Origin: Prevotellaceae bacterium UBA7028
GTDB lineage: Bacteria; Bacteroidota; Bacteroidia; Bacteroidales; Bacteroidaceae
NCBI GenBank assembly: GCA_002494215.1
Contig: DLBF01000085.1
Span: forward strand, 7,596-21,402
Reading direction: 5' to 3'
DNA: 13,807 nucleotides
Within the stretch, counting starts at the first letter, position 1; each line of letters opens with the position of its first letter. Under the pieces are notes generated by a model. The model worked only from the letters and a program-made list of their open reading frames with translations. It searched no databases and was not told the DNA's origin. Shown in pieces: positions 400 through 13,109 of the stretch. The position numbers and the translations under genes are program-made.

Positions 400-407
400 T
401 ATCTTTG
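400..407 (+). promoter_or_regulatory. Bacteroidota-type -7 box for the exported-protein operon
   Basis: TATCTTTG fits the TAnnTTTG consensus exactly. A clear TTTG -33 element is not visible. Transcription would begin around 413, leaving a leader of about 60 nt before the ATG at 475. This is the only convincing promoter upstream of the seven-gene run ending at 6130. Confidence 0.65.
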
Positions 408-474
408 CATTTACCATTAACTATGTAATTGAGAATCTAAACCAAACTAATTATAAACCTAATCGAAATTACCC

Positions 475-1299
475 ATGAAAAAATCTGTTATTCTGTTATC
501 GTTTTTCTCGATAACAATGTTGTTCTCTTGTAATAAACAGACACAGTATTCTGCCCCGTCTGCCGAGGAGGGCGCAGTGCAGGAAGTGCTTGAGCAACAG
601 GATGTTGACAAGATGGTGACGCTAATCAATGAGGTTTCTTCGTGCCTGGATTCTATTCAGATTCAGGAGAAGATGATCTTTGAGAATAAGGAGGGTGTTA
701 CCGATAATGAAAAAATCCTGATTCAGGTGCGTAGTCTGAAGGACCTGCTGGCACGTAAGCAGGCTCAGATAAATGCGCTGAACGGTAAGTTCTCTGACTC
801 GGAAAAGGAGTCGGCACAGAATCTGCAGAAGATGGTTGACTTCATTAACAATCAGTTGACGGAGAAAACGGAGAAGATGGGAATGCTGGAGGAAGCACTT
901 CAGAACAAAGATACCAAGATAGACGAGTTGCGCTATGGTATCACCCAGCTGAGAAAAGAGACTGAATACCTGAAGGAGCAGAACTACCAGCAGGACCGCC
1001 AGCTGAATGCCGTTTACTATGTGGTCGGCACGAAGAAGGAGCTGAAGAATATGGGACTACTGAAGAGCACTGCAAGCAAGAAGATTCTAACAGAGAATCT
1101 GGACAAGAGCAAGTTTAAACGTGCTGACAAGCGAGGCTTGAAGACTATCCCTCTGAACAAAAAGAAGGCAATCATCCTTACCAACAATCCTGCCAGCTCA
1201 TATACCATTACAACAGGTGCTGACGGTAAGAGTGTGCTGACAATCACGGATAAGGAAAAGTTCTGGGGGGCCTCTCCATATCTGATTATTCAGGAATGA
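475..1299 (+). CDS. Coiled-coil lipoprotein, Cbp1 (collagen-binding adhesin)-like
   Basis: 274-residue predicted lipoprotein. The N-terminus has a basic start, a hydrophobic core and a lipobox LFSC with the lipidated Cys at residue 19, so the mature protein should be lipid-anchored. Residues ~85-170 are a long heptad-like coiled coil rich in Lys, Glu, Gln and Leu. It is followed by a conserved-looking segment (NAVYYVVGTKKEL) and a compact C-terminal domain ending FWGASPYLIIQE. This architecture and the tail match my memory of the Bacteroides Cbp1 family, described as a collagen-binding glycoprotein; I could not test that. A D-S-I triplet at 59-61 fits the Bacteroidota O-glycosylation sequon D(S/T)(A/I/L/M/T/V). 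It is the first gene of the operon, 31 nt before the next. Adhesin function is inference; lipoprotein and coiled coil are seen. Confidence 0.85.
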   Translation: MKKSVILLSFFSITMLFSCNKQTQYSAPSAEEGAVQEVLEQQDVDKMVTLINEVSSCLDSIQIQEKMIFENKEGVTDNEKILIQVRSLKDLLARKQAQINALNGKFSDSEKESAQNLQKMVDFINNQLTEKTEKMGMLEEALQNKDTKIDELRYGITQLRKETEYLKEQNYQQDRQLNAVYYVVGTKKELKNMGLLKSTASKKILTENLDKSKFKRADKRGLKTIPLNKKKAIILTNNPASSYTITTGADGKSVLTITDKEKFWGASPYLIIQE

Positions 1300-1330
1300 T
1301 TATTTATTAACCCATTAAACATATACCATT

Positions 1331-2692
1331 ATGAAAAAAGCTTTATTATTATCAATTGCTGTGATGTGTCTGGGTACAACAGTTAAGGCACAGGAGGATT
1401 CGGACTCTAAGTATATCCGTAATTCGCTATATATGATGAAGTTGGACATGGTTCCGGATAATGCGGATTATGCCCATGCCTTTGAGGTGATGAACAACAC
1501 CTTTAACGAAATTGACTTTGCTAAGCGCTACGAGCGTTACAATGATTTCTCACTGGGCGAGCGTCATATCGACTGGGCTACCATCCCCACTGTTACCAAG
1601 GAAGAGATGGATGCCATTGGCAAGGAAACACAGAAGGATCTGATGATTAAGCAGCAGCTGCGGAACATGGGCGTAAAGGTTGACCCCATCTCTGAGCGCG
1701 AATATGCAGCACGTATCCTGAAATACTTCAACGAGAATAAGTTCGGTAACCAGCTGGTTGCTAAGTGGCATGTGGCAGCAGGAGCTGACACCAAGAATAT
1801 TGCAGCCTGGGACGATAAGCTTTCTGTTATCATGGATCTGGGTATGAAGGGTCTGAGCGAGGAGGCACGTGCCAATGCCAAGGCTTCAGAGAACCTGATT
1901 CAGATGTGTGGCAATTCAGAGAATAAACTGATAAGCACCACCTATGTGTGCGTGAATGACTATCGTCTGATTACTGCCAAGGAGAAGAGTGCTGTGCCCA
2001 TTGCAGTGGCAGAGATTACCTTGCAGTTCCTGCCCAGCATTGCTCAGTTGGCTGGTTCTGCTGCCGTATCAATTGCCAAGAAAGCAGCCGAGAAGACAAA
2101 GGGCTACTTCGTTAAGACAAATGCTTACCTCTTTAAGTTGGATTGGGATCAGACCAAGTTTGACTCCTTCTACAAAGACTTCTGGGGAGAGCCCGCTACG
2201 TTCCTGGAGAAGGCCGACTATCAGTTGAAGTACGTTGGCAAGTCCTCCAAGGCTGCTGGTGCAGGTATGACCATGGATGCCGAGAAGGTGGATGCACTGA
2301 CCGCTCGTGGTGCCCTGCGTGCAACGGATGCTGCCTTTGCAGCCCTGCAGCGCGACTACGAGGAGTTCCGTCCTATGTGCTCTCTGCATGTAATCGACGG
2401 CAAGCTGGGTGCTTACATTGGCAAGAAGGAAAGCATCAAGGGTGGTGACAAGTTCAATGTATTCATTCCTGAGGAGGATAAGGATGGTAATGTCACATGG
2501 AAGCAGGTTGGTAGTATCAAGGTTGATAAGAACGGTGTCTGGGATAATAGCGAAGGTGCCGGTGTAAAGATTGAAGGTGCTGCCGAGGATGGTGAGGAAG
2601 AGGAAGCAAACACTGCTCTTACATACACCGTATTCTCTGATAAGCCAAGCAAGAAGATTGGCGAGGGCTGTATGATTCGCCTGGCTAAGTAA
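1331..2692 (+). CDS. Exported protein of unknown function with possible FlgT-C-like C-terminal domain
   Basis: 453 residues, starting with a signal peptide cleaved by signal peptidase I after VKA (residue 20), leaving Gln21 at the mature N-terminus. The middle is mixed alpha/beta. It includes an Ala-rich hydrophobic stretch around residues 220-245, which looks more like a buried or amphipathic helix than a clear membrane span. The last ~105 residues are beta-rich (LGAYIGKKESIKGGDKFNVF, then VGSIKV and a closing GEGCMIRLAK). They recall the small barrel at the C-terminus of FlgT-like proteins, with an acidic insertion (DGEEEE) between strands; this is pattern-level inference. Family not recognised. 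It sits second in the exported-protein operon, 31 nt after the lipoprotein gene and 25 nt before the next gene. Confidence 0.85.
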   Translation: MKKALLLSIAVMCLGTTVKAQEDSDSKYIRNSLYMMKLDMVPDNADYAHAFEVMNNTFNEIDFAKRYERYNDFSLGERHIDWATIPTVTKEEMDAIGKETQKDLMIKQQLRNMGVKVDPISEREYAARILKYFNENKFGNQLVAKWHVAAGADTKNIAAWDDKLSVIMDLGMKGLSEEARANAKASENLIQMCGNSENKLISTTYVCVNDYRLITAKEKSAVPIAVAEITLQFLPSIAQLAGSAAVSIAKKAAEKTKGYFVKTNAYLFKLDWDQTKFDSFYKDFWGEPATFLEKADYQLKYVGKSSKAAGAGMTMDAEKVDALTARGALRATDAAFAALQRDYEEFRPMCSLHVIDGKLGAYIGKKESIKGGDKFNVFIPEEDKDGNVTWKQVGSIKVDKNGVWDNSEGAGVKIEGAAEDGEEEEANTALTYTVFSDKPSKKIGEGCMIRLAK

Positions 2693-2717
2693 ATAACCAT
2701 TAAAAACACATAGGAAT

Positions 2718-3230
2718 ATGAAAAAGTTTTTGTTCGCATGTATAATGCTACTAGCCTTCACAACAGTTGCCCATGCACAGAAGAAGGCTGTTGTAGGATA
2801 TAACTATGAGCTAAGCCTATCTAAGGAAAATGTTGCAGCCACCTCAGGCTTCAAGATCTTCAAGGTATGGAGCTATGGCAAGAAGAAGGAGCTGCTTACG
2901 CAGGACATCTGTATGCGTAATGCCATACACGGCTTACTCTTCAAGGGCTTGGCATCCAGTGATGTAGGTACTCAGGGAAATTTCCCCGCTCTCTGCCCCG
3001 AAGGCTATGACGCACATCAGGAGTACTTCGACGGATTCTTCGAGTCTGGAGACTACAGACAGTTCATCCAGCTTACCAGCAAAGGTGCTCAGCAGGCTGG
3101 CGATGTCATAAAGACTGCAAGCAAGGAGTGGAAGGTTGGCCTGCTGGTTCAGGTTAACGTGAATGCTCTGCGCAAGCGTCTGGAGCAGGATGGCATCATC
3201 CAGGGAGCCAGAGGAATTTTCTCACGCTAA
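2718..3230 (+). CDS. Small exported protein, paralogue of the gene at 5663
   Basis: 170 residues with a signal peptide ending AHA before Gln21. The mature domain pairs with the protein at 5663-6130 at several points: LLFKG (73-77) with VLFQG, YFDGFF (103-108) with YFDRFF, GDYRQF with GEYRNY, and a C-terminal LR..L..DGII in both. This copy differs by a nine-residue tail after DGII. The segment before LLFKG (a strand, then a helix with Ala and aromatic residues) loosely resembles the strand-helix start of LPP20/FlgT-N-like periplasmic domains; that is inference. No catalytic motif is visible. It is third in the operon. The duplication with two unrelated genes and a small gene in between suggests the two products partner or substitute for each other. 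Confidence 0.85.
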   Translation: MKKFLFACIMLLAFTTVAHAQKKAVVGYNYELSLSKENVAATSGFKIFKVWSYGKKKELLTQDICMRNAIHGLLFKGLASSDVGTQGNFPALCPEGYDAHQEYFDGFFESGDYRQFIQLTSKGAQQAGDVIKTASKEWKVGLLVQVNVNALRKRLEQDGIIQGARGIFSR

Positions 3231-3265
3231 GGAGTTACACATAAAACTAACAAACACTACAGAAG

Positions 3266-4219
3266 ATGAAAAAGACATATTTATTCAGTATATTGACTGC
3301 TTTCTTCATCAGTCTTACCGCTTATGCTCAGCAAGCTGCCATGCCTACCATCATTGTATTCCCCTCTGACGAGTGGATGAATGAACATGGCTACATGAAA
3401 ACAATCGATAACGATGGAGAGACAGAGTACATCCCCAGGTATAATGATGCCTTTGTACAGACGCGCGACATGGGTGCTGCCATTCAGGCGTTGCAGAAGG
3501 TTTTCGAGGAGCGTAAGTTTGAACATGAGGACTTGCAGAGCCTTCTGAAGGACATGAAGCGTGAGCGTGCCGAGGAACTGGCTAATGCTGCCGATGGTGA
3601 TGCTACAGAGAAGGGTGCTATGGATGACCTGATGCAGCAGGCCCGTCCTGACATCCGTGTTGACCTGGACTATGGTGTAACTGCCGTTGGCCCTAGAAAG
3701 AATATCAGCTACAAGATTAAGGCTGTTGATGCCTATACATCCGAGCAGTGCGCTTCGATAGAAGGAACTATCGAGATGACAATGGATCCCATAGACCTGG
3801 CTATCCGCAAGGCTGTGGCTGGTAACTGCGACGATTTCTGCCAGCAGATTATAGATTACTTCCTGGATCTGCGCGACAACGGCAGAAAGATTAACGTAAT
3901 CTTCCGTGCTGCCAAGGGTGCAGGCATCAATTTTATTAAGGATGAAATAGGTGACGAAGGTGACACCTATGACGAATTCCTGTATGACTGGGTCAAGAAA
4001 CATGCTGTGAAGAGTGCTTGCAAGAAAGGTCGTAAGACTGCAAACATGGTCGAGTTCAAGTCTGTTCGTATCCCATTCTTCAACGAAGAGGATGAGCCTA
4101 TCGAGGCAGAAGACTGGGCAAAGAAGGTAAGAAAAGCCTTTAAGGACGAAACTGGCATAAAGGTCAGCAAAGGACAGGGCAATACCCTTGGCCGTGTTAA
4201 TTTCATTGTAGGTGAGTAA
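3266..4219 (+). CDS. Exported DUF6175-like protein
   Basis: 317 residues. A signal peptide ends TAYA, with Gln22 first in the mature protein. The N-terminal strand PTIIVFPSDEW (27-37) is followed by a helical stretch rich in Glu, Lys and Arg (residues ~65-115). Next come a strand-rich part (DIRVDLDYGVTAVGP) and a C-terminal half with the motifs VEFKSVRIPFF and GLGR-like LGRVNF near the end. This order of motifs matches my recollection of DUF6175, a Bacteroidota family of exported proteins without assigned function; it was not checked against a profile. An AGAAG-like stretch 5 nt before the ATG may help initiation. It lies in the middle of the operon, 35 nt after the previous gene and 22 nt before the next. 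Confidence 0.85.
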   Translation: MKKTYLFSILTAFFISLTAYAQQAAMPTIIVFPSDEWMNEHGYMKTIDNDGETEYIPRYNDAFVQTRDMGAAIQALQKVFEERKFEHEDLQSLLKDMKRERAEELANAADGDATEKGAMDDLMQQARPDIRVDLDYGVTAVGPRKNISYKIKAVDAYTSEQCASIEGTIEMTMDPIDLAIRKAVAGNCDDFCQQIIDYFLDLRDNGRKINVIFRAAKGAGINFIKDEIGDEGDTYDEFLYDWVKKHAVKSACKKGRKTANMVEFKSVRIPFFNEEDEPIEAEDWAKKVRKAFKDETGIKVSKGQGNTLGRVNFIVGE

Positions 4220-4241
4220 TTTAACCTAAAAATCAAGAATC

Positions 4242-5177
4242 ATGAAAATCAAACATTTCCTTATAGGAGTATCTCTGTTGCTGGGCTCGGCAAGTACCTC
4301 GGCACAGATTATGCTTTCGCCTGTATTTGATTCTGCTATTGATGGCCTGAACGAGAATAATGTCTCTATCCTGGAGGGCAGACTACAGAGCCTGATTTCC
4401 TCTATGGGTATGGAGAGCGGTTATGGCGGACGTTTCGTACTGGCCTGCAAGGTAGCAGCATTGCAGCGCGAGGTTAGCAATTCCAAATTGATACAGCATC
4501 TGCAAGTGTCGTTTGCTGTGGGTGATAACGAGAGTAATATCTGCTTTGGCTCTACCACTACAGAATGTATCGGTATCGGTAATACTGAGGAACAGGCTAT
4601 GACCAGCGCTCTCAGGAATATCAAGGCCAGCAAGCAGTTGAAGGACTTGGTTGCATCCAGCAAGCAACGTATCATCGACTACTACAACAAGAATGGGGCT
4701 GCCATCCTGCAGCGAGCAAAGGCTCTGATAACAGCTCAGAAGTGGGAAGAGGCGCTGTGCGAGTTGTCTGCCATTCCTCAAGAGTGTGTATGTTACCGCG
4801 ATGCAGTGGCTATGATGGAGAGTACCTATGTTGCCCACATCAACCACGATGCTGCACAGGTACTGGCCGAGGCTCAGGCTGTATGGAGTGCCGATCCTAA
4901 TCCGGGTCCTGCTGCCGATCAGGCAATGGCCATCCTGGCGACTATTGATCCCAGCGCTAAATGCTATCCTCAGGCTCAGGCTCTGATGAAGAAGATAGAG
5001 AGTCGTGTTCAGAACGTTACAGATCAGCGTTACAAGGATGCCGTAACACTCGAGAAGGCTCGTATCAATACACAAGCCGCGTTGGAGAAGGCTCGCCTTC
5101 AAGCTTGTCGTGATGTGGCCAAGGCATATGCCCGCCGTACAGTGGTTGTTCGTAACTATTACCGTTCTTGGTGGTAA
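4242..5177 (+). CDS. Exported helical-repeat (TPR-like) protein of unknown function
   Basis: 311 residues with a signal peptide ending STSA before Gln22. The N-terminal ~120 residues look alpha/beta (strands around HLQVSFAVGDN and TTTECIGIGNTEEQA). From about residue 150 to the end the protein is almost entirely helical, with repeated Ala-rich pairs such as ILQRAKALITAQKWEEAL and the following helix, spaced like tetratricopeptide repeats. The tail is an Arg/Lys/Ala helix ending in YYRSWW. A D-S-A triplet at 30-32 fits the Bacteroidota O-glycosylation sequon. TPR-like repeats usually mediate protein contacts, so a scaffold role among the products of this operon is plausible but inferred. Only 9 nt separate its stop from the ATG chosen for the next gene, so translational coupling is likely. 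Confidence 0.82.
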   Translation: MKIKHFLIGVSLLLGSASTSAQIMLSPVFDSAIDGLNENNVSILEGRLQSLISSMGMESGYGGRFVLACKVAALQREVSNSKLIQHLQVSFAVGDNESNICFGSTTTECIGIGNTEEQAMTSALRNIKASKQLKDLVASSKQRIIDYYNKNGAAILQRAKALITAQKWEEALCELSAIPQECVCYRDAVAMMESTYVAHINHDAAQVLAEAQAVWSADPNPGPAADQAMAILATIDPSAKCYPQAQALMKKIESRVQNVTDQRYKDAVTLEKARINTQAALEKARLQACRDVAKAYARRTVVVRNYYRSWW

Positions 5178-5186
5178 TTGCCTGCC

Positions 5187-5639
5187 ATGCAAATGAATAG
5201 GTCATTAACTATAGTATTACTGTTATTATCCTGTGCATATAGCGTGTATGCACAGGATAGCTTCCAGAATCCGTACAAGTTCACGTACGAGATTGAATAC
5301 ACGTCGGAATACATGGATACCATAGCATCCTCTAATCTGGCCAGACTCGAAGTCAGATACGATGTAACGCAGAAGTCCCCGGTATGCAGCATCATGTATA
5401 ACGGAGAGCAGCGTTACCAAGGACGTATCCTTGATATTCAACTGGATAAAGACCATCAGACATTCGTACTCGAGAAGTATTTCATGAACAAGTACAATGC
5501 CTGTCTGCTGGTTGCCAGAGGGACGGGGGAGAACCGTGATGCCAAGATAGGGATGATCTATTATGCCAACCAGAAAGAAGATCCCGCATCAGAGAAAACA
5601 TGTTATTGTCTGATGCTGAAGGATGTGGATAAGAAATAG
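5187..5639 (+). CDS. Small exported protein of unknown function
   Basis: 150 residues from the ATG at 5187; a second ATG at 5193 is equally acceptable and gives 148. A TTG at 5178 in the same frame is less likely, because it directly abuts the preceding stop and adds nothing to the signal peptide. The hydrophobic core is followed by SVYA and then Gln, a good signal peptidase I site. An earlier LLSC inside the core could instead be read as a lipobox, so anchoring is uncertain. The mature part is strand-rich (FTYEIEYTSEYMDTIAS, SPVCSIMYNGEQ, FVLEKYFMNKYNACLLVARG). A D-T-I triplet fits the O-glycosylation sequon. Family not recognised. Its place between the helical-repeat gene and the paralogue at 5663 makes it part of the same exported module. 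Confidence 0.75.
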   Translation: MQMNRSLTIVLLLLSCAYSVYAQDSFQNPYKFTYEIEYTSEYMDTIASSNLARLEVRYDVTQKSPVCSIMYNGEQRYQGRILDIQLDKDHQTFVLEKYFMNKYNACLLVARGTGENRDAKIGMIYYANQKEDPASEKTCYCLMLKDVDKK

Positions 5640-5662
5640 AATCATTAAATCAATCAGAAGAT

Positions 5663-6130
5663 ATGAAAAAGCTTTTTCTTTTAATGCTGACCTTTATTGC
5701 TGTTTCCGGTACAGCCAAGGCGCAGGACAAGGTTCTGTACAAGGAGACCGTGAGGTGCCTGAACGTTGAGCAGGACGGTTCGGAGACATTGCGCATTACA
5801 GGCTTTGGCCGCAACCGCAGGGATGCCAAGGAGCAGGCAATGAAAAACTCTGTATATGTGGTACTCTTCCAGGGTGTTAAGGATGGCAATAAGGGTTGTA
5901 ACATGCGTCCTCTGATAGAGGAGACAGGTGCAAGAGAGAAGTACGAGGGATACTTTGACCGTTTCTTTGCTGACGACGGCGAATATCGTAATTATGTCTC
6001 TCTGAAGGACACCAGATGGGGTTCTAAGAACAAGAGTAAGAACAAGATTGGTGCTGCTTACGAGATGACAGTACGTGTACTACGTTCTCAGCTGAAGACT
6101 CGCTTGCAGAATGACGGTATCATCCGTTAA
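5663..6130 (+). CDS. Small exported protein, paralogue of the gene at 2718
   Basis: 155 residues with a signal peptide ending AKA before Gln21. Residues 42-71 read as a strand, a glycine turn and a helix (LRITGFGRNRRDAKEQAM, then VYVVLFQG). That is the layout of LPP20/FlgT-N-type periplasmic domains (strand, G-x-G, Ala-rich helix); the fold call is inference. From VLFQG to DGII it aligns with the protein at 2718-3230: YFDRFF (97-102), GEYRNY, and LRSQLKTRLQNDGII at the C-terminus. The protein stops one residue after DGII, whereas the paralogue continues for nine more. It is the last gene of the operon, 23 nt after the previous stop; only a weak 4-bp hairpin plus TTTT follows, then a MITE-like element. 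Confidence 0.85.
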   Translation: MKKLFLLMLTFIAVSGTAKAQDKVLYKETVRCLNVEQDGSETLRITGFGRNRRDAKEQAMKNSVYVVLFQGVKDGNKGCNMRPLIEETGAREKYEGYFDRFFADDGEYRNYVSLKDTRWGSKNKSKNKIGAAYEMTVRVLRSQLKTRLQNDGIIR

Positions 6131-6161
6131 TAGGCGTTAGCCTTTTCATTCATACGATAGA

Positions 6162-6298
6162 GGCTGTGTCATAATAAAGAGACTGCGTGGAAAGTATTTG
6201 TCCGTCACGTGCGAACTTTTTGTCCGTCACGTGCGGACTCGGAGTCCGTCCCGTGCGAACGATACTTACCTAAGGTGTATCTTTATTATAGCACAGCC
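6162..6298. mobile_element. MITE-like element with 19-bp imperfect terminal inverted repeats
   Basis: The left arm ggctgtgtcataataaaga (6162-6180) and the reverse complement of the right arm (6280-6298) match at 17 of 19 positions. A second short pair lies inside (aagtat near 6192-6197 with atactt at 6262-6267). No ORF lies between, and the interior is three 22-bp tandem units. Ends beginning GGCTGTGTCA are reminiscent of insertion-sequence ends in Bacteroidota, which is my recollection rather than a search result. I see no clear target-site duplication. It separates the exported-protein operon from the ABC transporter gene and could act as a large RNA hairpin in a read-through transcript. 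Confidence 0.55.
6200..6260. repeat. Three 22-bp tandem units with a 17-bp core
   Basis: The core gtccgtcacgtgcgaac occurs at 6200-6216, as gtccgtcacgtgcggac at 6222-6238, and as gtccgtcccgtgcgaac at 6244-6260, giving an exact 22-bp period. The first two carry CACGTG. The junction between units two and three makes a perfect 6-bp hairpin (cggact, loop cgg, agtccg). The linkers are ttttt and tcgga. The block sits in the centre of the inverted-repeat element. Confidence 0.85.
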
Positions 6299-6362
6299 CC
6301 TTCTTGCATTAGGATAGGGATTTAAAAAATGTTTATTCTTTCGTTTATCCCTCTTTTTTTCG

Positions 6363-6395: not shown

Positions 6396-8231
6396 ATGCT
6401 GAAGCAATTTCTATCCATAATGTCGCGCTTCCTGAAGCCCTACAGAAAGTATCTGGCATGGTCGGTGGTGCTGAATTTTGTATCACAATGGCTCAACGTT
6501 TTCTCCTTTGTGGTGCTCATTCCTATCCTGAATATCCTGTTCAAGATAGACACTACCGTATATGAATACAAGGAGTGGACGTGGGATACGCTTAGCAAAG
6601 ACTTGATAGTGAACAATGCCTACGCTTGGGTGCAGGATCTGATAGATGTTCACGGTGCCTTCCTTACGCTTGTCTTTATGGGTATTGCCCTGATAGTGAT
6701 GACGGGACTGAAGACAGCCGGATACTTTGCCTCCTCTGCTATCATGGTTCCCTTGCGTACGGGTGTGGTTCGTGATATCAGAACTGCCGTATATAATAAG
6801 GTATTGAAGTTGCCCCTCAGTTTCTTCTCTGAGGAGCGTAAGGGCGACATCATTGCCCGTATGAGTGCCGATGTGCAGACGGTAGAAACCTCCATCACCA
6901 ATTCAGTGGATATGCTGATACGTCAGCCCATAGCCATTCTGGTATGCTTTGTCACCTTGTTTGCCGTTAGTTGGCAGATGACACTCTTTGTCCTGGTGGT
7001 AGCGCCCGTTGCCGGATGGGTGATGGGTGTGGTTGGCAGGAAGCTGAAACGTCAGTCGGCAACCGTGCAGCGTCAGTGGGGCGGTATCATTGCCCAGTTG
7101 GACGAGACACTGGGAGGCCTGCGCATCATCAAGGCTTTCATAGCCGAGAAGAAGATGGAGAAGCGCTTCCTGCAGATTAACGATGCCTATCGTAAGGATA
7201 TGAGTGCCATGGTTATCCGTCAGAGCGCCGCTCACCCTATGAGTGAGTTTCTGGGCACTATCATATTGACTGTAGTGCTATGGTTTGGCGGTTCGCTGAT
7301 TCTGAACGATTCGAACCTGATAGATGCCTCTACCTTTATCTTCTATATGGTTATCCTATATAGTGTTATCAATCCGCTGAAGGAGTTCTCCCGCGCTACC
7401 TATCAGATACCTCAGGGCTTGGCATCCATGGATCGCATTGATTTCATCCTGCAGGCAGAGAATCCCATCAAGGAACCTGAACATCCACAACCCATGCCCT
7501 CTTTCGAGAAGGAGATAGAGTTGCGTGACGTTTCGTTCAGCTATACAGAGGGACGAGAGGTGCTGAAGCATATCAACCTAACCGTTCCCAAAGGCAAGAC
7601 GGTAGCATTGGTGGGTCAGTCGGGTTCCGGCAAGTCCACGCTGGTGGATCTGATTCCCCGCTACCACGATGTGCAGACGGGTGAAGTACTTATTGATGGA
7701 ACCAATATCAAAGGATTGCGTATCAGCGACTTGCGTTCACTAATTGGTAATGTCAATCAGGAGGCTATCCTCTTTAACGATACATTCTATAACAATATCA
7801 CCTTCGGAGTGGAGAATGCCACCATGGAGCAGGTGATAGAAGCTGCCAAGATAGCCAATGCGCATGAGTTTATTATGGAATCAGAAAACGGATACGATAC
7901 CATGATTGGTGACCGAGGCGGACGTCTGTCAGGTGGTCAGCGTCAGCGTGTATCTATTGCTCGTGCCATACTAAAGAACCCGCCCATCCTTATTCTGGAC
8001 GAGGCAACTTCAGCCCTTGATACAGAGAGCGAACGTCTGGTGCAGGAGGCTTTGGAAAGGTTGATGAAGAGTCGTACCACCATAGCCATTGCCCATCGAC
8101 TTTCTACCATCAGGAATGCCGACATCATACACGTCTTGTATGAGGGAGAGATTGTAGAGAGCGGTCAGCACGACGAGCTCATTGCCAAGAACGGCTACTA
8201 CAAGCGTCTTTACGATATGCAGCAGCTGTAG
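6396..8231 (+). CDS. MsbA-like ABC transporter, fused permease and ATPase
   Basis: 611 residues, the usual size for a homodimeric half-transporter. Residues ~1-340 are the membrane domain, with hydrophobic segments near 20-50, 85-115, 175-210 and 285-335 and a long charged coupling region (GLRIIKAF). The ATPase domain has Walker A GQSGSGKST at 407-415, the signature LSGGQ at 511-515, Walker B ILILDE ending at Glu536, and the switch His567 in AIAHRLST. All catalytic motifs are intact. MsbA-type exporters flip lipid A/LOS or other lipid-linked substrates across the inner membrane. The surrounding glycosyltransferase and acyltransferase genes favour such a substrate, but family members also move drugs and peptides. 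Its last 22 nt overlap the 3' end of the convergent glycosyltransferase gene. Confidence 0.93.
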   Translation: MLKQFLSIMSRFLKPYRKYLAWSVVLNFVSQWLNVFSFVVLIPILNILFKIDTTVYEYKEWTWDTLSKDLIVNNAYAWVQDLIDVHGAFLTLVFMGIALIVMTGLKTAGYFASSAIMVPLRTGVVRDIRTAVYNKVLKLPLSFFSEERKGDIIARMSADVQTVETSITNSVDMLIRQPIAILVCFVTLFAVSWQMTLFVLVVAPVAGWVMGVVGRKLKRQSATVQRQWGGIIAQLDETLGGLRIIKAFIAEKKMEKRFLQINDAYRKDMSAMVIRQSAAHPMSEFLGTIILTVVLWFGGSLILNDSNLIDASTFIFYMVILYSVINPLKEFSRATYQIPQGLASMDRIDFILQAENPIKEPEHPQPMPSFEKEIELRDVSFSYTEGREVLKHINLTVPKGKTVALVGQSGSGKSTLVDLIPRYHDVQTGEVLIDGTNIKGLRISDLRSLIGNVNQEAILFNDTFYNNITFGVENATMEQVIEAAKIANAHEFIMESENGYDTMIGDRGGRLSGGQRQRVSIARAILKNPPILILDEATSALDTESERLVQEALERLMKSRTTIAIAHRLSTIRNADIIHVLYEGEIVESGQHDELIAKNGYYKRLYDMQQL

Positions 8232-9211
8232 CGGTTGGCGTTCAGTCTGGAAATCTTGGGTATCAGATTACGGATGAATTTGATATAGAAGATAAACGGC
8301 ATCAGGTAAAGAATAATAAGGTATGAAGTAGGCCAGATGCCTTTCTTTACCAGCTGCCATAGGATTCCCCATGTTTCTTTTCTTACCACCGGGTCAATGC
8401 AGGTTGGCCTGATGTCGTTGATGAAATTCCACAGACACTCTGTCTGCTCTCTCTTCAACTCGGGGATGAACATGTTTAGCATATCCTTCCATACGGGCAG
8501 ACAGGCCAGCGCTCTCTCGTCATTGTTTTTGAAACGGGTCATGATACTCTGCGGACGTATGCGGTAGAAGTAAGTGTCGTGCTTGCAGAAGGCAATGCGC
8601 GTAATCTTAGGTGCCAACGTGAAGTTCCACAACTCATCCTCGTGTACTGCTCCTTCGCGGAAGAAGAGTTGGTTTTCTATCAGGAAGTCTCTTCTGACCA
8701 GTCGGTTCCATGCCGTTACGGGAATTCCTCTCCGTCCTCCTCTGCTCAGCATCATTGTGGCAATCCATTTTGGATTGTCGGCATAGTCGGGGAAGGGCTT
8801 CTCCATGGTGTAGCTTTTCCTTTTTGTAGTCTTGGCACCCGCGGCTATCATCTGTGCCTCGGGGTATTGCTGTGCAACCTGCATGAAGTACATGAGGCAC
8901 TGGTCGGAGATGCTGTCGTCGCTGTCCACAAAGAGTACATACTTGCCCTTGGCATCCATGATACCTGTATTACGGGCTGCCGATAGTCCTCGGTTGTGTT
9001 CGTGCTTGACAATCCTGAAGTCTATCTCTCCCTTGTAACTGTCCAGATAGTCATTCACCATCTTCATGCTGTTGTCATTTCCGCAGTCATCTACCAAGAT
9101 ACATTCCACACCAGCAGTATAGGTCTGTGAGGCAATAGAGTCCAGGCATTCTATGATGTAGTCCTGCACATTATAGATGGGGATGATAATGGAGATGATT
9201 GTCTCTGGCAT
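8210..9211 (-). CDS. Glycosyltransferase family 2
   Basis: 333 residues from the ATG at 9211. Upstream in-frame sequence to 9421 is open but lies inside the preceding gene and looks non-coding in this frame. The start MPETIISIIIPIYN is the canonical GT-A N-terminal strand. Asp41-Asp42 (ILVDD) and the DSDD at 96-99 in VLFVDSDDS are the nucleotide-sugar and metal-binding residues, and HEDE at 190-193 fits the catalytic-base region. Residues ~294-313 are hydrophobic (TSYLIILYLMPFIFYIKF), suggesting membrane association at the C-terminus. It should add a sugar to a surface glycan or LOS; the sugar cannot be told. It follows the pyruvyl transferase gene by 11 nt in one operon. The stop lies inside the convergent ABC transporter gene (22-bp overlap). 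Confidence 0.92.
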   Translation of the reverse strand: MPETIISIIIPIYNVQDYIIECLDSIASQTYTAGVECILVDDCGNDNSMKMVNDYLDSYKGEIDFRIVKHEHNRGLSAARNTGIMDAKGKYVLFVDSDDSISDQCLMYFMQVAQQYPEAQMIAAGAKTTKRKSYTMEKPFPDYADNPKWIATMMLSRGGRRGIPVTAWNRLVRRDFLIENQLFFREGAVHEDELWNFTLAPKITRIAFCKHDTYFYRIRPQSIMTRFKNNDERALACLPVWKDMLNMFIPELKREQTECLWNFINDIRPTCIDPVVRKETWGILWQLVKKGIWPTSYLIILYLMPFIFYIKFIRNLIPKISRLNANRYSCCIS

Positions 9212-9222
9212 ATCGTAATAGA

Positions 9223-10311
9223 TTATTTTGTGGAGAGATAGGCGATTAACATTTCCAAGGCTAGAATGAAGATGGTAAGGAAAAGGGCCCATGTGAGGAG
9301 GCGTATTCTCTTTTCTCTCTTCTTCTGTATCTGTTCCTGACGGTGTACGTAGATGGTCATGTCCAGGAGTTCCTGCTCTTCTTCGTTGGGCACGCCTGCC
9401 AGTTCGGAATCCTTCAGCCATGTGTTATAGAAGGTTAGGTTCTTTCCGTAGGAGTTGTCCATCATCTTTACGGGCAATCCTAACAACAGTCGCAGGATGG
9501 CCACATGCAGTCGTGTAGAATAGACCATCTTATATTCCGATACAAACCTTACGCCTTCGCTGATACGGTCGGGCAGGAACGAAGTCTGGAAGAAAGTATC
9601 TGTCTCCTCGGCCGAATGCTTGCGGGTATATCTCTTAGCTATCTTATAGGCCTCCTTCTGGTTGGGCCAGTCTTTTATCTCAATACGAGCGGAGGCGATA
9701 TCTGCATTCAGGGAACCTACGGGCGACTCCTTGTCTTTCCTCAGTAATAGCAGTGCCTCTTTGGTGATTTTGCTCTTTTGGGCGTATAGCTGTTCTCTGT
9801 CTATGCAGAATGCCATATCCGGCAGTGTTAGCATCTGACCGGTATATCCATGTTTCGTCAGCTGTTCTGCCGAATTGTCGTCGCGGGCACAGATAATCAG
9901 GTTCTTGTGCTGGTTCATCCTTCGGATATCCTCGTTGAAGACATCGTCCGACTCGTAATGTATCGTCTGCGGCAGTATGATGATGCGGTTTTCGGGGTAT
10001 GAATCTATCACCTTTAGCCTGAAGTTCTGATGCTTGCGCCACATGTCACCAAAATTCCCGCCTCCATGCAATAAAATAATGGCATTCTTAGGTAATGGGC
10101 GGAAGTTGAAGGTTCCTATGCTGTGTTGTCCCAGACACTGATGTGGTATATCCTTTAAGAAATGAACTGTCCCCAACCATATTAGCGTATCACCTATGTT
10201 GCTATGATAGGGAACGTCCAAATAGCAGTAGTCCGAGTCTATCAGCGACGTCAGCTGCTCCCTGATTTCCATTTGCAGTTTGTTGCAAATATCTTGTTCG
10301 TTCTGTTTCAT
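9223..10311 (-). CDS. Polysaccharide pyruvyl transferase family protein with C-terminal membrane anchor
   Basis: 362 residues. Motifs of the polysaccharide pyruvyl transferase family (PF04230) are visible: NIGD at 38-41, LHGGGNFGD at 81-89, ILPQT at 112-116, and a later STRLHVAI segment followed by GLPV. Members transfer pyruvate from phosphoenolpyruvate to a sugar as a ketal, adding a negative charge to exopolysaccharide or capsule. Some relatives do other chemistry, so the reaction is family-level. Residues 338-359 form one clear hydrophobic segment after a Lys/Arg-rich stretch (QKKREKRIR), placing the enzyme on the cytoplasmic face of the inner membrane. No signal peptide is present. It is the first gene of a two-gene minus-strand operon with the GT2 gene. 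Confidence 0.88.
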   Translation of the reverse strand: MKQNEQDICNKLQMEIREQLTSLIDSDYCYLDVPYHSNIGDTLIWLGTVHFLKDIPHQCLGQHSIGTFNFRPLPKNAIILLHGGGNFGDMWRKHQNFRLKVIDSYPENRIIILPQTIHYESDDVFNEDIRRMNQHKNLIICARDDNSAEQLTKHGYTGQMLTLPDMAFCIDREQLYAQKSKITKEALLLLRKDKESPVGSLNADIASARIEIKDWPNQKEAYKIAKRYTRKHSAEETDTFFQTSFLPDRISEGVRFVSEYKMVYSTRLHVAILRLLLGLPVKMMDNSYGKNLTFYNTWLKDSELAGVPNEEEQELLDMTIYVHRQEQIQKKREKRIRLLTWALFLTIFILALEMLIAYLSTK

Positions 10312-10349
10312 AGGTTTTACGCTTTACTCATTTATGATGATAGCATATG

Positions 10350-10357
10350 CAAAGGTA
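10350..10357 (-). promoter_or_regulatory. -7 box for the pyruvyl transferase / GT2 operon
   Basis: On the minus strand this reads TACCTTTG, an exact TAnnTTTG match, 38 nt before the ATG at 10311. No good -33 element is seen. It is divergent from the promoter at 10422. Confidence 0.65.
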
Positions 10358-10373
10358 ATGAAATTTATGGACA

Positions 10374-10388
10374 ATTCATTTAATGAAT
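10374..10388. promoter_or_regulatory. 15-bp palindrome between divergent promoters
   Basis: attcatt, one central t, then aatgaat: a perfect 7-bp dyad lying between the two divergent -7 boxes (10350-10357 and 10422-10429). It is a candidate operator, but the AT-rich context makes a chance palindrome possible. Confidence 0.35.
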
Positions 10389-10395
10389 GTAAATA

Positions 10396-10429
10396 TTTGT
10401 GATATTGTTATTTTTTTTGCCTACCTTTG
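10396..10429 (+). promoter_or_regulatory. Promoter of the TTG-initiated glycosyltransferase gene
   Basis: TTTG at 10396-10399 and TACCTTTG at 10422-10429 match the -33 and -7 elements with 22 nt between them. Transcription would start near 10436, downstream of the ATG at 10383, which rules out that ATG as the translational start for this transcript. Confidence 0.7.
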
Positions 10430-10448
10430 TGCAACAAATAAGACGAAT

Positions 10449-11285
10449 TTGAAAAAGATAGCAGTACTCACAATGGTCCGTAACGATGACTTCTTCCTGC
10501 GTAAGTGGGTAGAGTATTACGGACGTGAATTGGGCAAGGAGAACCTATATATATATTACGACGGTGAGGATCAGGTCGTTGCCGACTTCTGCCAAGGCAC
10601 CAATGCCTATGTGCATCCTAAGATTGGTACGCAGGTAGTGAGCGCAGAGAAAGGTCGTCTGAGATTCCTCTCAGATAAAGCAGCAGAGCTCTTCTCTAAA
10701 GGGTATGATCTGGTCATTGGAGTGGATGCCGACGAGTATATTGTGGTTGACCCTAAGTTGGGCGTCAGCCTTAGGGAGTATCTTTCTGCCCAGGATATTG
10801 ATATAAGCCTTTCTCCCTTAGGGCTCGACTTTGGTCAGAAGTTAGGTGAGGAGGGTGATTTATCTGTGGAGGATGCTTTCCTTCGTCAGCGTCGTTATGC
10901 CCAGATAGGTACCCGTTATACGAAACCCTCTATTATTGCAGAGCCTTGTCTGTGGGGTAGTGGTTTCCATCGTGTAAAGGGCCATAACTTCCATATCGCT
11001 AAAGACTTGTACCTGATGCACTTCGGCTATGCCGACAAGAAAATTCTGCAAGAAAGGTTGGGGGATACTGACCGTATAGCGCAGGGATGGGAGAAGCATA
11101 TCTATAAGCGTAGTCGTACCATCCGATATGCTACGGAGAAGAAGGCACGCGACTTTGATTGCTGGACTCGTTATGCACGTATCTGCCAGACGTTGTGTCG
11201 TCCTTTTTATGCGCTCAATAAGCCTGCGATGCTGGAATTAAGAATTGTGGTTAGGATACCTGATAGGTTTGAAGAGGTATTATAA
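10449..11285 (+). CDS. Glycosyltransferase (GT2/GT92-like), TTG start
   Basis: 278 residues from a TTG at 10449. The frame is open back to an ATG at 10383, but the promoter at 10396-10429 lies inside that extension, and the family's conserved start (KKIAVLTMVRNDDFFLRKWVEYY) begins right at the TTG. The next ATG (10473) would cut into that strand. The pattern 'V(L)T MVRND..FL..W..YY' with a following YIYYDG and the acidic DADE at 93-96 (IGVDADEY) fits the Glyco_tranf_2_4 / GT92-like group that modifies surface polysaccharide or LOS. It contains a late region rich in Arg, Lys and aromatic residues, with no clear membrane span. It is a single-gene unit, divergent from the pyruvyl transferase operon. 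Its stop is 4 nt from the convergent stop of the Stealth gene. Confidence 0.85.
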   Translation: MKKIAVLTMVRNDDFFLRKWVEYYGRELGKENLYIYYDGEDQVVADFCQGTNAYVHPKIGTQVVSAEKGRLRFLSDKAAELFSKGYDLVIGVDADEYIVVDPKLGVSLREYLSAQDIDISLSPLGLDFGQKLGEEGDLSVEDAFLRQRRYAQIGTRYTKPSIIAEPCLWGSGFHRVKGHNFHIAKDLYLMHFGYADKKILQERLGDTDRIAQGWEKHIYKRSRTIRYATEKKARDFDCWTRYARICQTLCRPFYALNKPAMLELRIVVRIPDRFEEVL

Positions 11286-11289
11286 GGCT

Positions 11290-12243
11290 TTATTCTCTCA
11301 GCAAATCCTCTACAAACTTTTTGATGCGAGCAAAGACCTCATCGCTTACTTGATCCAAAGCATAGAAGCAGCCAAAGCAAACGTGGCTACCTGGTTTGGT
11401 TACGCGTCGCAGCGTCCATTCCAACTGCATCATTCCCTTTTTAGAATAATAACGCATCAGTATGGGGCGAACAGACTGGAAGTGCAGCCTTCCTTTCTTC
11501 CATAATATAATATAACAGATTTCATCCGTACGGAAGTGCTGACGACTGCGGAAGCGGTTCTGGATATTCTGTATAAGGCGGTCGGGATGCGTCTCGTAAA
11601 ACTGTTGCAGGGTGCTGCGTAGCAATGGGCGAGGCGTGTGTGCCAGACGGATAAACGTCCGTCCCTCACCAGCTATCTCGGCTGCATCCATCATCTGCTG
11701 TATATGGTTCACTTGGCAAGAATGCCCAATAAAGTGTTTCAGGGAGAACCATGCTTTCGTCCAGAAGAGTGAGGATCTGTTTCCATAGCAATTGATATGT
11801 CCTTCGCAGGGAAAGAAAACCTCAGGTTCTACGCTACGGCATACCAGCAGGTCGTCATTGAAGTATATGAAGTGCTCGCTCAGGTTAGGAATCCTCCATA
11901 GCAGAGCTTCTATGCTTAGGGAATTGAAGGTGGGCAGGTATTGTTCGTATCCGCTAAAGATAATTTTATGATCCACTATCTCAACGGGAATCCTGCTCTC
12001 CACCTTAGGATCCTGTTGGTCTGTAACAATGAAGATGCGGTTTACCCAAGGCATGAATTTATTGATAGAACGTATGCACCAATGTATCTCGCCCCTGTCG
12101 GCATAACGGGTGGGTGCTGCAATATCCTTCTCTTGTGCTTCCTCTGGTCGGATATAGGCAGCCCTCTTGGCATTCAGGACGGCATCGTTGCCATCTACCC
12201 AAGTGACGACAACGTCTATGTCGAAGTGCTGTAGTGCATTCAT
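11290..12243 (-). CDS. Stealth-family sugar phosphotransferase
   Basis: 317 residues. The Stealth signature is clear. CR1 is DIDVVVTWVDGND at 8-20. CR2 spans roughly 46-133 (RYADRGEIHWCIRSI, FIVTDQQ, YLPTFNSLSIEALL, FIYFNDDLLV). A CR3-like AHTPRPLLRS lies near residue 200. Stealth proteins transfer a hexose-1-phosphate to a glycan acceptor, giving a phosphodiester-linked sugar; that activity is known for capsule polymerases of this family and is inferred here. No signal peptide or membrane segment is apparent, so action at the cytoplasmic face is expected. The start ATG overlaps the stop of the upstream acyltransferase gene by 4 bp (ATGA), indicating translational coupling. Confidence 0.9.
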   Translation of the reverse strand: MNALQHFDIDVVVTWVDGNDAVLNAKRAAYIRPEEAQEKDIAAPTRYADRGEIHWCIRSINKFMPWVNRIFIVTDQQDPKVESRIPVEIVDHKIIFSGYEQYLPTFNSLSIEALLWRIPNLSEHFIYFNDDLLVCRSVEPEVFFPCEGHINCYGNRSSLFWTKAWFSLKHFIGHSCQVNHIQQMMDAAEIAGEGRTFIRLAHTPRPLLRSTLQQFYETHPDRLIQNIQNRFRSRQHFRTDEICYIILWKKGRLHFQSVRPILMRYYSKKGMMQLEWTLRRVTKPGSHVCFGCFYALDQVSDEVFARIKKFVEDLLRE

Positions 12244-13109
12244 CTCTGTCTGATTTTGCTAAGCCAACGGTTATGCGACCACAGCCATATCTCAGGCTGT
12301 CGCTTTATAGTCTCCTCCAGCATGCGGAAGAATAGTGCGGTAAGAGGGTAGGGTTGTTGTTTCAGGTCCTCGGGAACCTCCATCTCGTAAAATGTCAGTC
12401 TGTAGTGCCCACGACGTGGTTTCTCTACATCCAGATATACTAACTCTGCGTTCACCTTCTTGGCAATCTCTTCGGCACTGGGAACATACCGCGTTTTCTG
12501 GTTCATGAAGGTAAGTGTATCCTTTACTTTTGTAAACGGGCGCTGGTCGGTAATGAATCCGCATAGGAACGGCTCGCCCATGGCATTCCATCTCAGCAGT
12601 GTGCGGACGGTCTGCATGGTCTCTATCTGTTCTGTGTTCCAACGACTACGTATCTCGTTCATCAGCGACGAGAAGTACTTGTTCTTGATATACTTGTATA
12701 TCTCGCAGGTCTTCTTGGGGGCTTTGTAGTGCATACTCACTTCCTGAGCCCATTCCCAACACCCGCAGTGCCCCATTAGCATAAAGATGTTCTTGCCTTG
12801 GGCAGCTATCCGTTCAGGCAGTTCGCTGTTCACAACCTCCACGCGTCTACGCATCTCCTGGTCTGATATGTTCAGACACTTAAAGGCTTCTATGAAGACG
12901 TCGCACAGGTTATGGTAAAAGGCCTTCTCTATGCAGATAATCTCCTCCAGGCTCTTTTCCGGGAAGGAACGGCTCAGGTTTTCTCTGACCAGACGTCGCC
13001 TATACCTTATTATATAATATATAATAGGGAATGCCGCATCGCTAATCAGGTAGAGGATACCCAATGGTAATCCCGCCAATAACCGCATAAAATGGTGTTT
13101 CTTCTTCAT
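12240..13109 (-). CDS. LpxL/HtrB-type lipid A acyltransferase
   Basis: 289 residues, typical for the LpxL/LpxM/HtrB family. An N-terminal hydrophobic helix (LLAGLPLGILYLISDAAFPIIYYII, read in two parts at ~10-34) anchors it to the inner membrane. The catalytic HX4(D/E) motif is His114 with Glu119 in GHCGCWEWA. A later FITDQRP and the closing IWLWSHNRW are also characteristic of the family. It should add a secondary acyl chain to the lipid A precursor; chain and position cannot be told. The ATG at 13109 lies only ~8 nt after a -7 box, so a transcript from that box would be nearly leaderless; Met8 (ATG at 13088) is an alternative start. It is the first gene of an operon with the Stealth gene, sharing ATGA. 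Confidence 0.9.
   Translation of the reverse strand: MKKKHHFMRLLAGLPLGILYLISDAAFPIIYYIIRYRRRLVRENLSRSFPEKSLEEIICIEKAFYHNLCDVFIEAFKCLNISDQEMRRRVEVVNSELPERIAAQGKNIFMLMGHCGCWEWAQEVSMHYKAPKKTCEIYKYIKNKYFSSLMNEIRSRWNTEQIETMQTVRTLLRWNAMGEPFLCGFITDQRPFTKVKDTLTFMNQKTRYVPSAEEIAKKVNAELVYLDVEKPRRGHYRLTFYEMEVPEDLKQQPYPLTALFFRMLEETIKRQPEIWLWSHNRWLSKIRQR

Follow-up and report, generated by a model that had tools for sequence, protein, structure and literature searches.

The Vibrio H-ring consists of FlgO, FlgP and FlgT (PMC6375700), and a FlgP basal disk is described in Campylobacter (PMC12222027). Module types of these flagellar structures recur in a cluster of seven genes, g1 to g7, in the 13,807-nucleotide stretch of DNA analysed here (the window): a FlgT-like/CsgG-like domain in g4 and g5, a FlgT_C-like tail on g2, and possibly, in g7, an SHS2 topology whose helix is followed by an insert, plus a helix at the C-terminus. 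Unlike the flagellar rings, the cluster has its modules split over separate genes and carries additional parts, namely the TPR-like region of g5 and the C-domain of DUF6175, the family of g4.

To compare host genomes, 19 chosen DUF6175-bearing relatives were used as carriers, the window's own genome not being among them. Flagellar rod proteins were found in only 1 of these 19 possibly incomplete genomes and curlin repeats in none, and both a flagellar H-ring and a curli system were rejected; CsgG-family genes were present in 7. The cluster shares module types of curli and flagellar rings and, by these tests on relatives, is neither. It departs from the outer-membrane secretion or anchor proteins CsgG and HfaB (for HfaB, PMC6707917) both in the curlin-free carriers (19/19) and in the membrane hairpins, for which the DUF6175 model gives no indication. 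The Pel exporter, with its PelC lipoprotein ring, differs too, no Pel protein appearing in the Pfam matches of the seven products, and, in contrast to LpoB and TolB, these matches gave neither a beta-propeller nor a known synthase partner. The terms DUF6175, PF19672 and NF052320 were not found in the literature searched, and papers on FlgP, FlgT, FlgO, CsgG, LpoB, HfaB, TolB, PelC, Lpp20, Tip alpha and dodecin held nothing on the cluster in their titles and abstract beginnings.

Gene layout and probable export signals in the window

The seven genes run on the plus strand from 475 to 6130 with intergenic gaps of 31, 25, 35, 22, 9 and 23 nt, and the ORF coordinates bear out an earlier note on this DNA, which had described seven plus-strand genes separated by 9-35 nt.

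400..408, plus strand: TATCTTTGC, possible Bacteroides-type -7 promoter element (weak pattern match)
475..1299, plus strand: g1, Cbp1-family lipoprotein, lineage-specific accessory
1331..2692, plus strand: g2, probable exported protein with a FlgT_C-like tail
2718..3230, plus strand: g3, probable single-domain exported protein, paralogue of g7
3266..4219, plus strand: g4, DUF6175 (PF19672), N-domain predicted in the CsgG/PelC/FlgT/TolB fold class
4242..5177, plus strand: g5, probably exported, CsgG/LpoB-like N-domain followed by TPR-like helices
5187..5639, plus strand: g6, small, probably exported protein, found in close relatives only
5663..6130, plus strand: g7, paralogue of g3; topology possibly SHS2/dodecin-like, interrupted by an inserted segment

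The start of g6 was taken as the ATG at 5187; the mechanical ORF begins with TTG at 5178. The ORF preceding the cluster is followed by a terminator-like hairpin at 276-301, a class numbering 8 in the window against a shuffle mean of 9.8 and hence not enriched. The evidence for the single promoter that had been proposed for all seven genes is weak: TATCTTTGC is the sole plus-strand match in the window to a Bacteroides-type -7 pattern, and 2.06 matches were expected by chance over both strands together; further promoters inside the cluster may exist. The next gene downstream of the cluster is an ABC transporter gene (at 6396), followed by genes related to glycans and lipid A. Rfam gave no match anywhere in the window at its gathering cut-off, and among the seven products only g4 passed the Pfam cut-offs and only g1 those of NCBIfam.

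Export signals were assessed by eye together with a simple hydropathy score. Close to the N-terminus, the highest Kyte-Doolittle mean over 10 residues was 2.41-2.95 across the seven products; two control ORFs of the window scored 2.74 (a glycosyltransferase) and 1.96, so by itself the score is not specific for export. The same scan revealed no membrane-spanning segment further along, no later 19-residue stretch reaching 1.6 in any of the seven (maximum 1.42, in g2). By eye, g1 has the lipobox LFSC and the other products have A-x-A/Q-like sites; g6 carries LLSC besides and is ambiguous. All seven products are likely exported, with g1 as the one lipoprotein, in line with what had been claimed.

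Conservation of the cluster in relatives

A contig scan of genomes yielded 21 DUF6175 loci. All seven genes were found in unchanged order in L001, L002 and L004; L003 was without g6, L005 was without g1 and g6, and two loci were incomplete (L006 begins within g2, L007 stops within g4). The order g2-g3-g7-g4-g5 was seen in Flavobacterium (L008-L010, the g7 ORF of L010 having just 88 aa) and in a Chitinophaga-labelled MAG (L011), and L012 was without g7. In the Flavobacteriaceae locus L019, g2 was followed by a g3-type domain fused to DUF6175 and then by g5. Eight loci (L013-L018, L020, L021) held DUF6175 and g5 alone of the seven-gene set. Co-occurrence of g2, g3, g4/DUF6175, g5 and g7 thus extended over Bacteroidales, Flavobacterium and the Chitinophaga-labelled MAG. 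DUF6175 itself was present in 19 of 395 genomes sampled across the phylum and in 55 of 251 sampled from the family of L001.

A larger set of 60 loci combined the 21 with 40 larger regions, picked for diversity among the DUF6175 places of these two genome samples, L097 being dropped as a copy of L016. With profiles iterated on these loci themselves, so that matches are partly by construction, g5 lay immediately downstream of DUF6175 in 50 of the 60, and a g3/g7-type gene lay within 1.5 kb upstream in 35, was fused to DUF6175 in 9 (44 together), and was found anywhere on the DUF6175 strand, or fused, in 45. The g2 gene was present in 26/60 and a CsgG-like protein in 11/60, 9 of these being rows of that profile. 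The two never occurred together (0/60, hypergeometric 8e-4), a pattern not counted as independent evidence because related loci share type.

When the g5 profile was run over the 251 genomes, 63 places matched, of which 7 (E 2.3e-4 to 9.2e-4) were dropped and 56, in 49 genomes, were kept. Of these strong places, 54 lay within 1 kb of DUF6175; conversely, 55 of 69 DUF6175 places, some of which are pieces of one gene, had a strong g5 within 1 kb. The distance matrices of g4 and g5 were correlated (r 0.84, 51 loci), as shared ancestry alone can yield.

Since it is conserved in other genomes, the cluster is more than a chance arrangement, and g2-g5 with g7 form a conserved multi-gene operon that is kept together, not scattered, around DUF6175 homologues. 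The suggestion of one undescribed system is supported for g2-g5 and g7, as a conserved multi-gene envelope system for which the searches made gave no name, and not for g1 and g6; the seven genes as one conserved unit were ruled out.

These two genes are lineage-specific additions to the conserved set. The lipoprotein g1, earlier called Cbp1-like, indeed belongs to NCBIfam Cbp1_fam_LP (NF052320; 220.5 bits, cut-off 90). This family was over cut-off in 216 of the 251 genomes from the family of L001, at least 161 of the 216 being without DUF6175, and g1 was near DUF6175 in 4/60 loci. Cbp1 of Bacteroides fragilis (BF0586; PMC3949742) falls in the same NCBIfam family, and g1 differs from it in sitting in an operon with DUF6175. 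By family membership, g1 is a candidate collagen-binding adhesin. For g6 no Pfam or NCBIfam match was obtained up to E 1, and its profile matched in 5 of 69 loci, one of which (L041) is the same place as L001 and another (L064) apparently the same as L004. PADLOC, searched at E up to 0.01 with the seven products, returned only PbeC matches of g1 (0.0011 and 0.0061) and none for the other six, and a known anti-phage defence system was rejected.

Domain relationships of the conserved products

In some related operons a CsgG/LpoB-like protein replaces g2, as judged from sequence. Nine such proteins were aligned (A7); the gene was directly upstream of a g3/g7-type gene or DUF6175 in 8 of the 9 and followed g5 in L095. 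Of six A7 proteins scanned, four were over the Pfam cut-off for LpoB (a fifth just under, 21.8 vs 22.3) and four for CsgG; FlgT_C matched three below its cut-off, and one had no Pfam match up to 0.1. Profile pairs were compared with hhalign and calibrated with 40 column shuffles per pair, a lenient control.

The 3266 gene, g4, matched DUF6175 with 264.5 bits (cut-off 23), confirming an earlier DUF6175-like call. The predicted DUF6175 model aligned best with CsgG, PelC, HpaA and FlgT, and no Foldseek match reached E 0.001 or better. The DUF6175 N-domain scored 34.3 against the CsgG domain of A7 (shuffled maximum 18.2) and, with a low score, 22.2 against the g5 N-domain (shuffled maximum 16.9). 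On the predicted model, the g4 N-domain is placed in the CsgG/LpoB/FlgT-M/TolB-N fold class. The long strands of the model (130-141, 144-155 and 161-172) are linked by 2 and 5 residues, and membrane hairpins of the CsgG type are therefore not evident in this part. The C-domain of DUF6175 was not above shuffles against the A7 tail (7/40 reached the score) or the g5 N-domain (17/40). Among solved-structure sequences the g4 profile found nothing significant (best 0.051). A search of 72,556 plasmid records found no DUF6175; among 50,697 phage records it occurred in one, an unverified 9 kb faecal scaffold. That scaffold carries the cluster together with an ATPase-like and a Fic-like ORF, both identified by eye, and it looks bacterial.

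The g5 N-domain scored 36.1 against the CsgG domain of A7 (shuffled maximum 24.0). The helical-repeat protein of the earlier note corresponds to g5, whose relatives matched TPR-type models (best 1.4e-6), the window copy reaching only 0.015. Its profile found no significant solved-structure sequence (best 0.15 and 0.17 [LptE]).

The FlgT-C-like tail that the note had pointed to was located on g2. The g2 tail scored 41.8 against the A7 tail (shuffled maximum 19.1), and the likeness of g2 to FlgT_C is only remote, by way of this tail of the CsgG-like protein: at E up to 1, g2 of the window itself had no match to FlgT_C (PF16538), and 2 of 17 g2-family members matched (best E 0.033). The g2 N-domain barely exceeded shuffles against the A7 CsgG domain (18.9 vs 18.6), the g2 tail did not (14/40 reached the score), and the g2 profile had no match among solved-structure sequences.

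The two paralogues reported before are g3 and g7 (phmmer 6.6e-12, searched among the seven products). Their likeness to SHS2/dodecin is weak, and they are only possible members of the LPP20/FlgP (SHS2) family. Foldseek with the g7 model gave a best E of 0.57, and the g3/g7 profile found nothing significant among solved-structure sequences (best 0.02, a designed protein). Against the g5 N-domain the g3/g7 profile scored 27.2 over 25 columns only (shuffled maximum 13.5), and against the DUF6175 C-domain 16.0 over 15 columns (shuffled maximum 13.7); it was not above shuffles against the A7 CsgG domain (5/40 reached the score).

Proposed assembly and alternative explanations

The computations show operon conservation, likely export signals, a fold class for g4 on a predicted model, and profile similarity for g5 and for the tail of g2. 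We tentatively propose, at slightly less than even confidence, that the products of g2-g5 and g7 are components of a single periplasmic assembly associated with the outer membrane, for which a ring or scaffold is the most likely form. In it, modules of the CsgG/LpoB/FlgT type, supplied by g4, by the N-domain of g5 and by g2 or the CsgG-like protein that replaces it, would lie next to one another. The g3/g7 subunits, possibly SHS2-like, would supply a second layer or ring, comparable to that of FlgP in flagellar motors. CsgG/FlgT-type and possibly SHS2-type modules would in this way build stacked rings or a lattice. The TPR-like part of g5 may be a docking arm for a partner, and g1 and g6 would be local additions to the scaffold. 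Ring formation, outer-membrane location, assembly and cargo are all points that we infer.

Some relatives carry extra genes in the operon. These encode WG-repeat proteins or small proteins that look barrel-like by eye, one of which matched OMP_b-brl just below its cut-off (8.1e-6); a barrel-like family of three (L101, L102, L118) had no significant Pfam match. In one branch a gene for a channel-like protein is added. These genes agree with an envelope location, without proving it, and suggest that scaffold cargo varies by lineage.

The added channel-like protein bears on a rather unlikely alternative, an envelope-spanning sensor or gate in which exported g4 and g5 bind an inner-membrane ion channel and couple the state of the outer envelope to ion flow, g2, g3 and g7 replacing the channel-linked part in the window type. 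Directly upstream of DUF6175-g5 in all eight of the loci that keep only these two genes (L013-L018, L020, L021), a gene encodes a protein in which two TM-like segments accompany the conserved stretch TRYIGDPG and which clusters with true Ion_trans channels of the same loci (phmmer, E 1e-5), and the DUF6175 and g5 proteins there look like lipoproteins by eye. However, two proteins of this type matched Pfam Ion_trans below cut-off (0.079 and 0.042) and a third not at all up to 0.1. In four other loci without g2 and g3/g7 (L089, L098, L099, L106) the channel-like gene is not upstream, L098 having a relative downstream instead with a different pore stretch, and the channel is absent from the window's own cluster.

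An export apparatus, that is, a CsgG/PelC-like outer-membrane complex passing polymer or protein outward, is unlikely. CsgG and PelC were among the best fold matches of the DUF6175 model, glycan genes lie downstream in the window and the operons of some relatives include barrel-like genes, but the model lacks visible CsgG-type membrane hairpins, the 19 carriers showed no curlin repeats, and the clusters of L001 and L003 have no flanking glycan genes (ORF starts read by eye).

It is distinctly improbable that the products are LpoB-like regulators that span the envelope and switch a peptidoglycan synthase. LpoB works as one lipoprotein, and although Pfam LpoB was over cut-off in most of the g2-position proteins scanned, this reading leaves the conserved partners unexplained, and the recurrent neighbours, by eye, include no recognisable cell-wall gene. 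A chance grouping of unrelated exported proteins is very improbable and, for g2-g5 and g7, refuted by an order kept across orders, with fusions, linked presence and the g4/g5 correlation (which shared ancestry can also give) alongside, even if g1 and g6 do stand outside the conserved set.

A broader picture, in which a flagellum-free ring machine of the Bacteroidota envelope uses H-ring/CsgG/PelC module types and, in one branch, is seated on an ion channel of the inner membrane whose pore sequence is unusual, acting as an envelope-spanning sensor or gate, we consider unlikely.

The analysis places the DUF6175 family in a predicted fold class, identifies partners that regularly accompany it and suggests a role open to testing. 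Should the ring proposal be correct, a FlgT/CsgG-type toolkit would have been reused, with neither curli nor a flagellum, in an appreciable fraction of a gut-associated family. This would bear on the origin of flagellar accessory rings and on the organisation of the outer membrane in Bacteroidota.

Flanks of the gene run and the repeat array

The features on either side of the seven plus-strand genes for probably exported proteins (g1 to g7) are as follows.

1-251, truncated by the window start: 3' end of a Tyr-/His-rich ORF, recognized by eye
276-301: terminator-like hairpin, beyond the end of that ORF
6159-6301, in the intergenic region separating g7 from the ABC transporter gene: inverted repeat and GTCCGTCACGTGCGAAC array
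6396-13109, both strands: genes for an ABC exporter, glycosyltransferases, a polysaccharide pyruvyl transferase, a Stealth protein and a lipid A acyltransferase

The inverted repeat spanning 6159-6301 is imperfect (25 nt, 84%) and encloses three 17-nt repeats, GTCCGTCACGTGCGAAC, at a spacing of 22 nt. The exact 15-nt core of these repeats was found in none of the 117 loci compared.

Flagellar and CsgG genes in carrier genomes

Flagellar rod protein matches were obtained in only one of the 19 DUF6175 carrier genomes searched (G117), where they lie on a different contig from DUF6175. A strong CsgG match (E = 5.8e-62) was located in carrier genome G166 at G166:C32:514964-515602, again on a different contig from DUF6175; a search of that genome for curlin repeats gave none.

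Gene neighbors in related loci

At DUF6175 loci L013-L018, L020 and L021, the gene immediately 5' of DUF6175 encodes a channel-like protein, 426-460 aa long, that has two TM-like segments. It also has a conserved stretch, TRYIGDPG, at the position occupied by TVGYGD in the canonical channels encoded in L017, L018 and L020. Downstream of g5 (TPR-like helices), L091 carries a gene for an SPFH/Band 7 and GYF_2 domain protein within the same-strand run, and a relative of this protein is encoded likewise in L109.

Locus L118 is a 9-kb record of faecal source (MT836698.1) with an unverified "Bacteriophage sp." label. It holds a WG repeat gene, g2 (FlgT_C-like tail), a pair of g3/g7-type genes separated by a barrel-like gene, g4 (DUF6175) and g5, and by its appearance it looks like bacterial chromosome.
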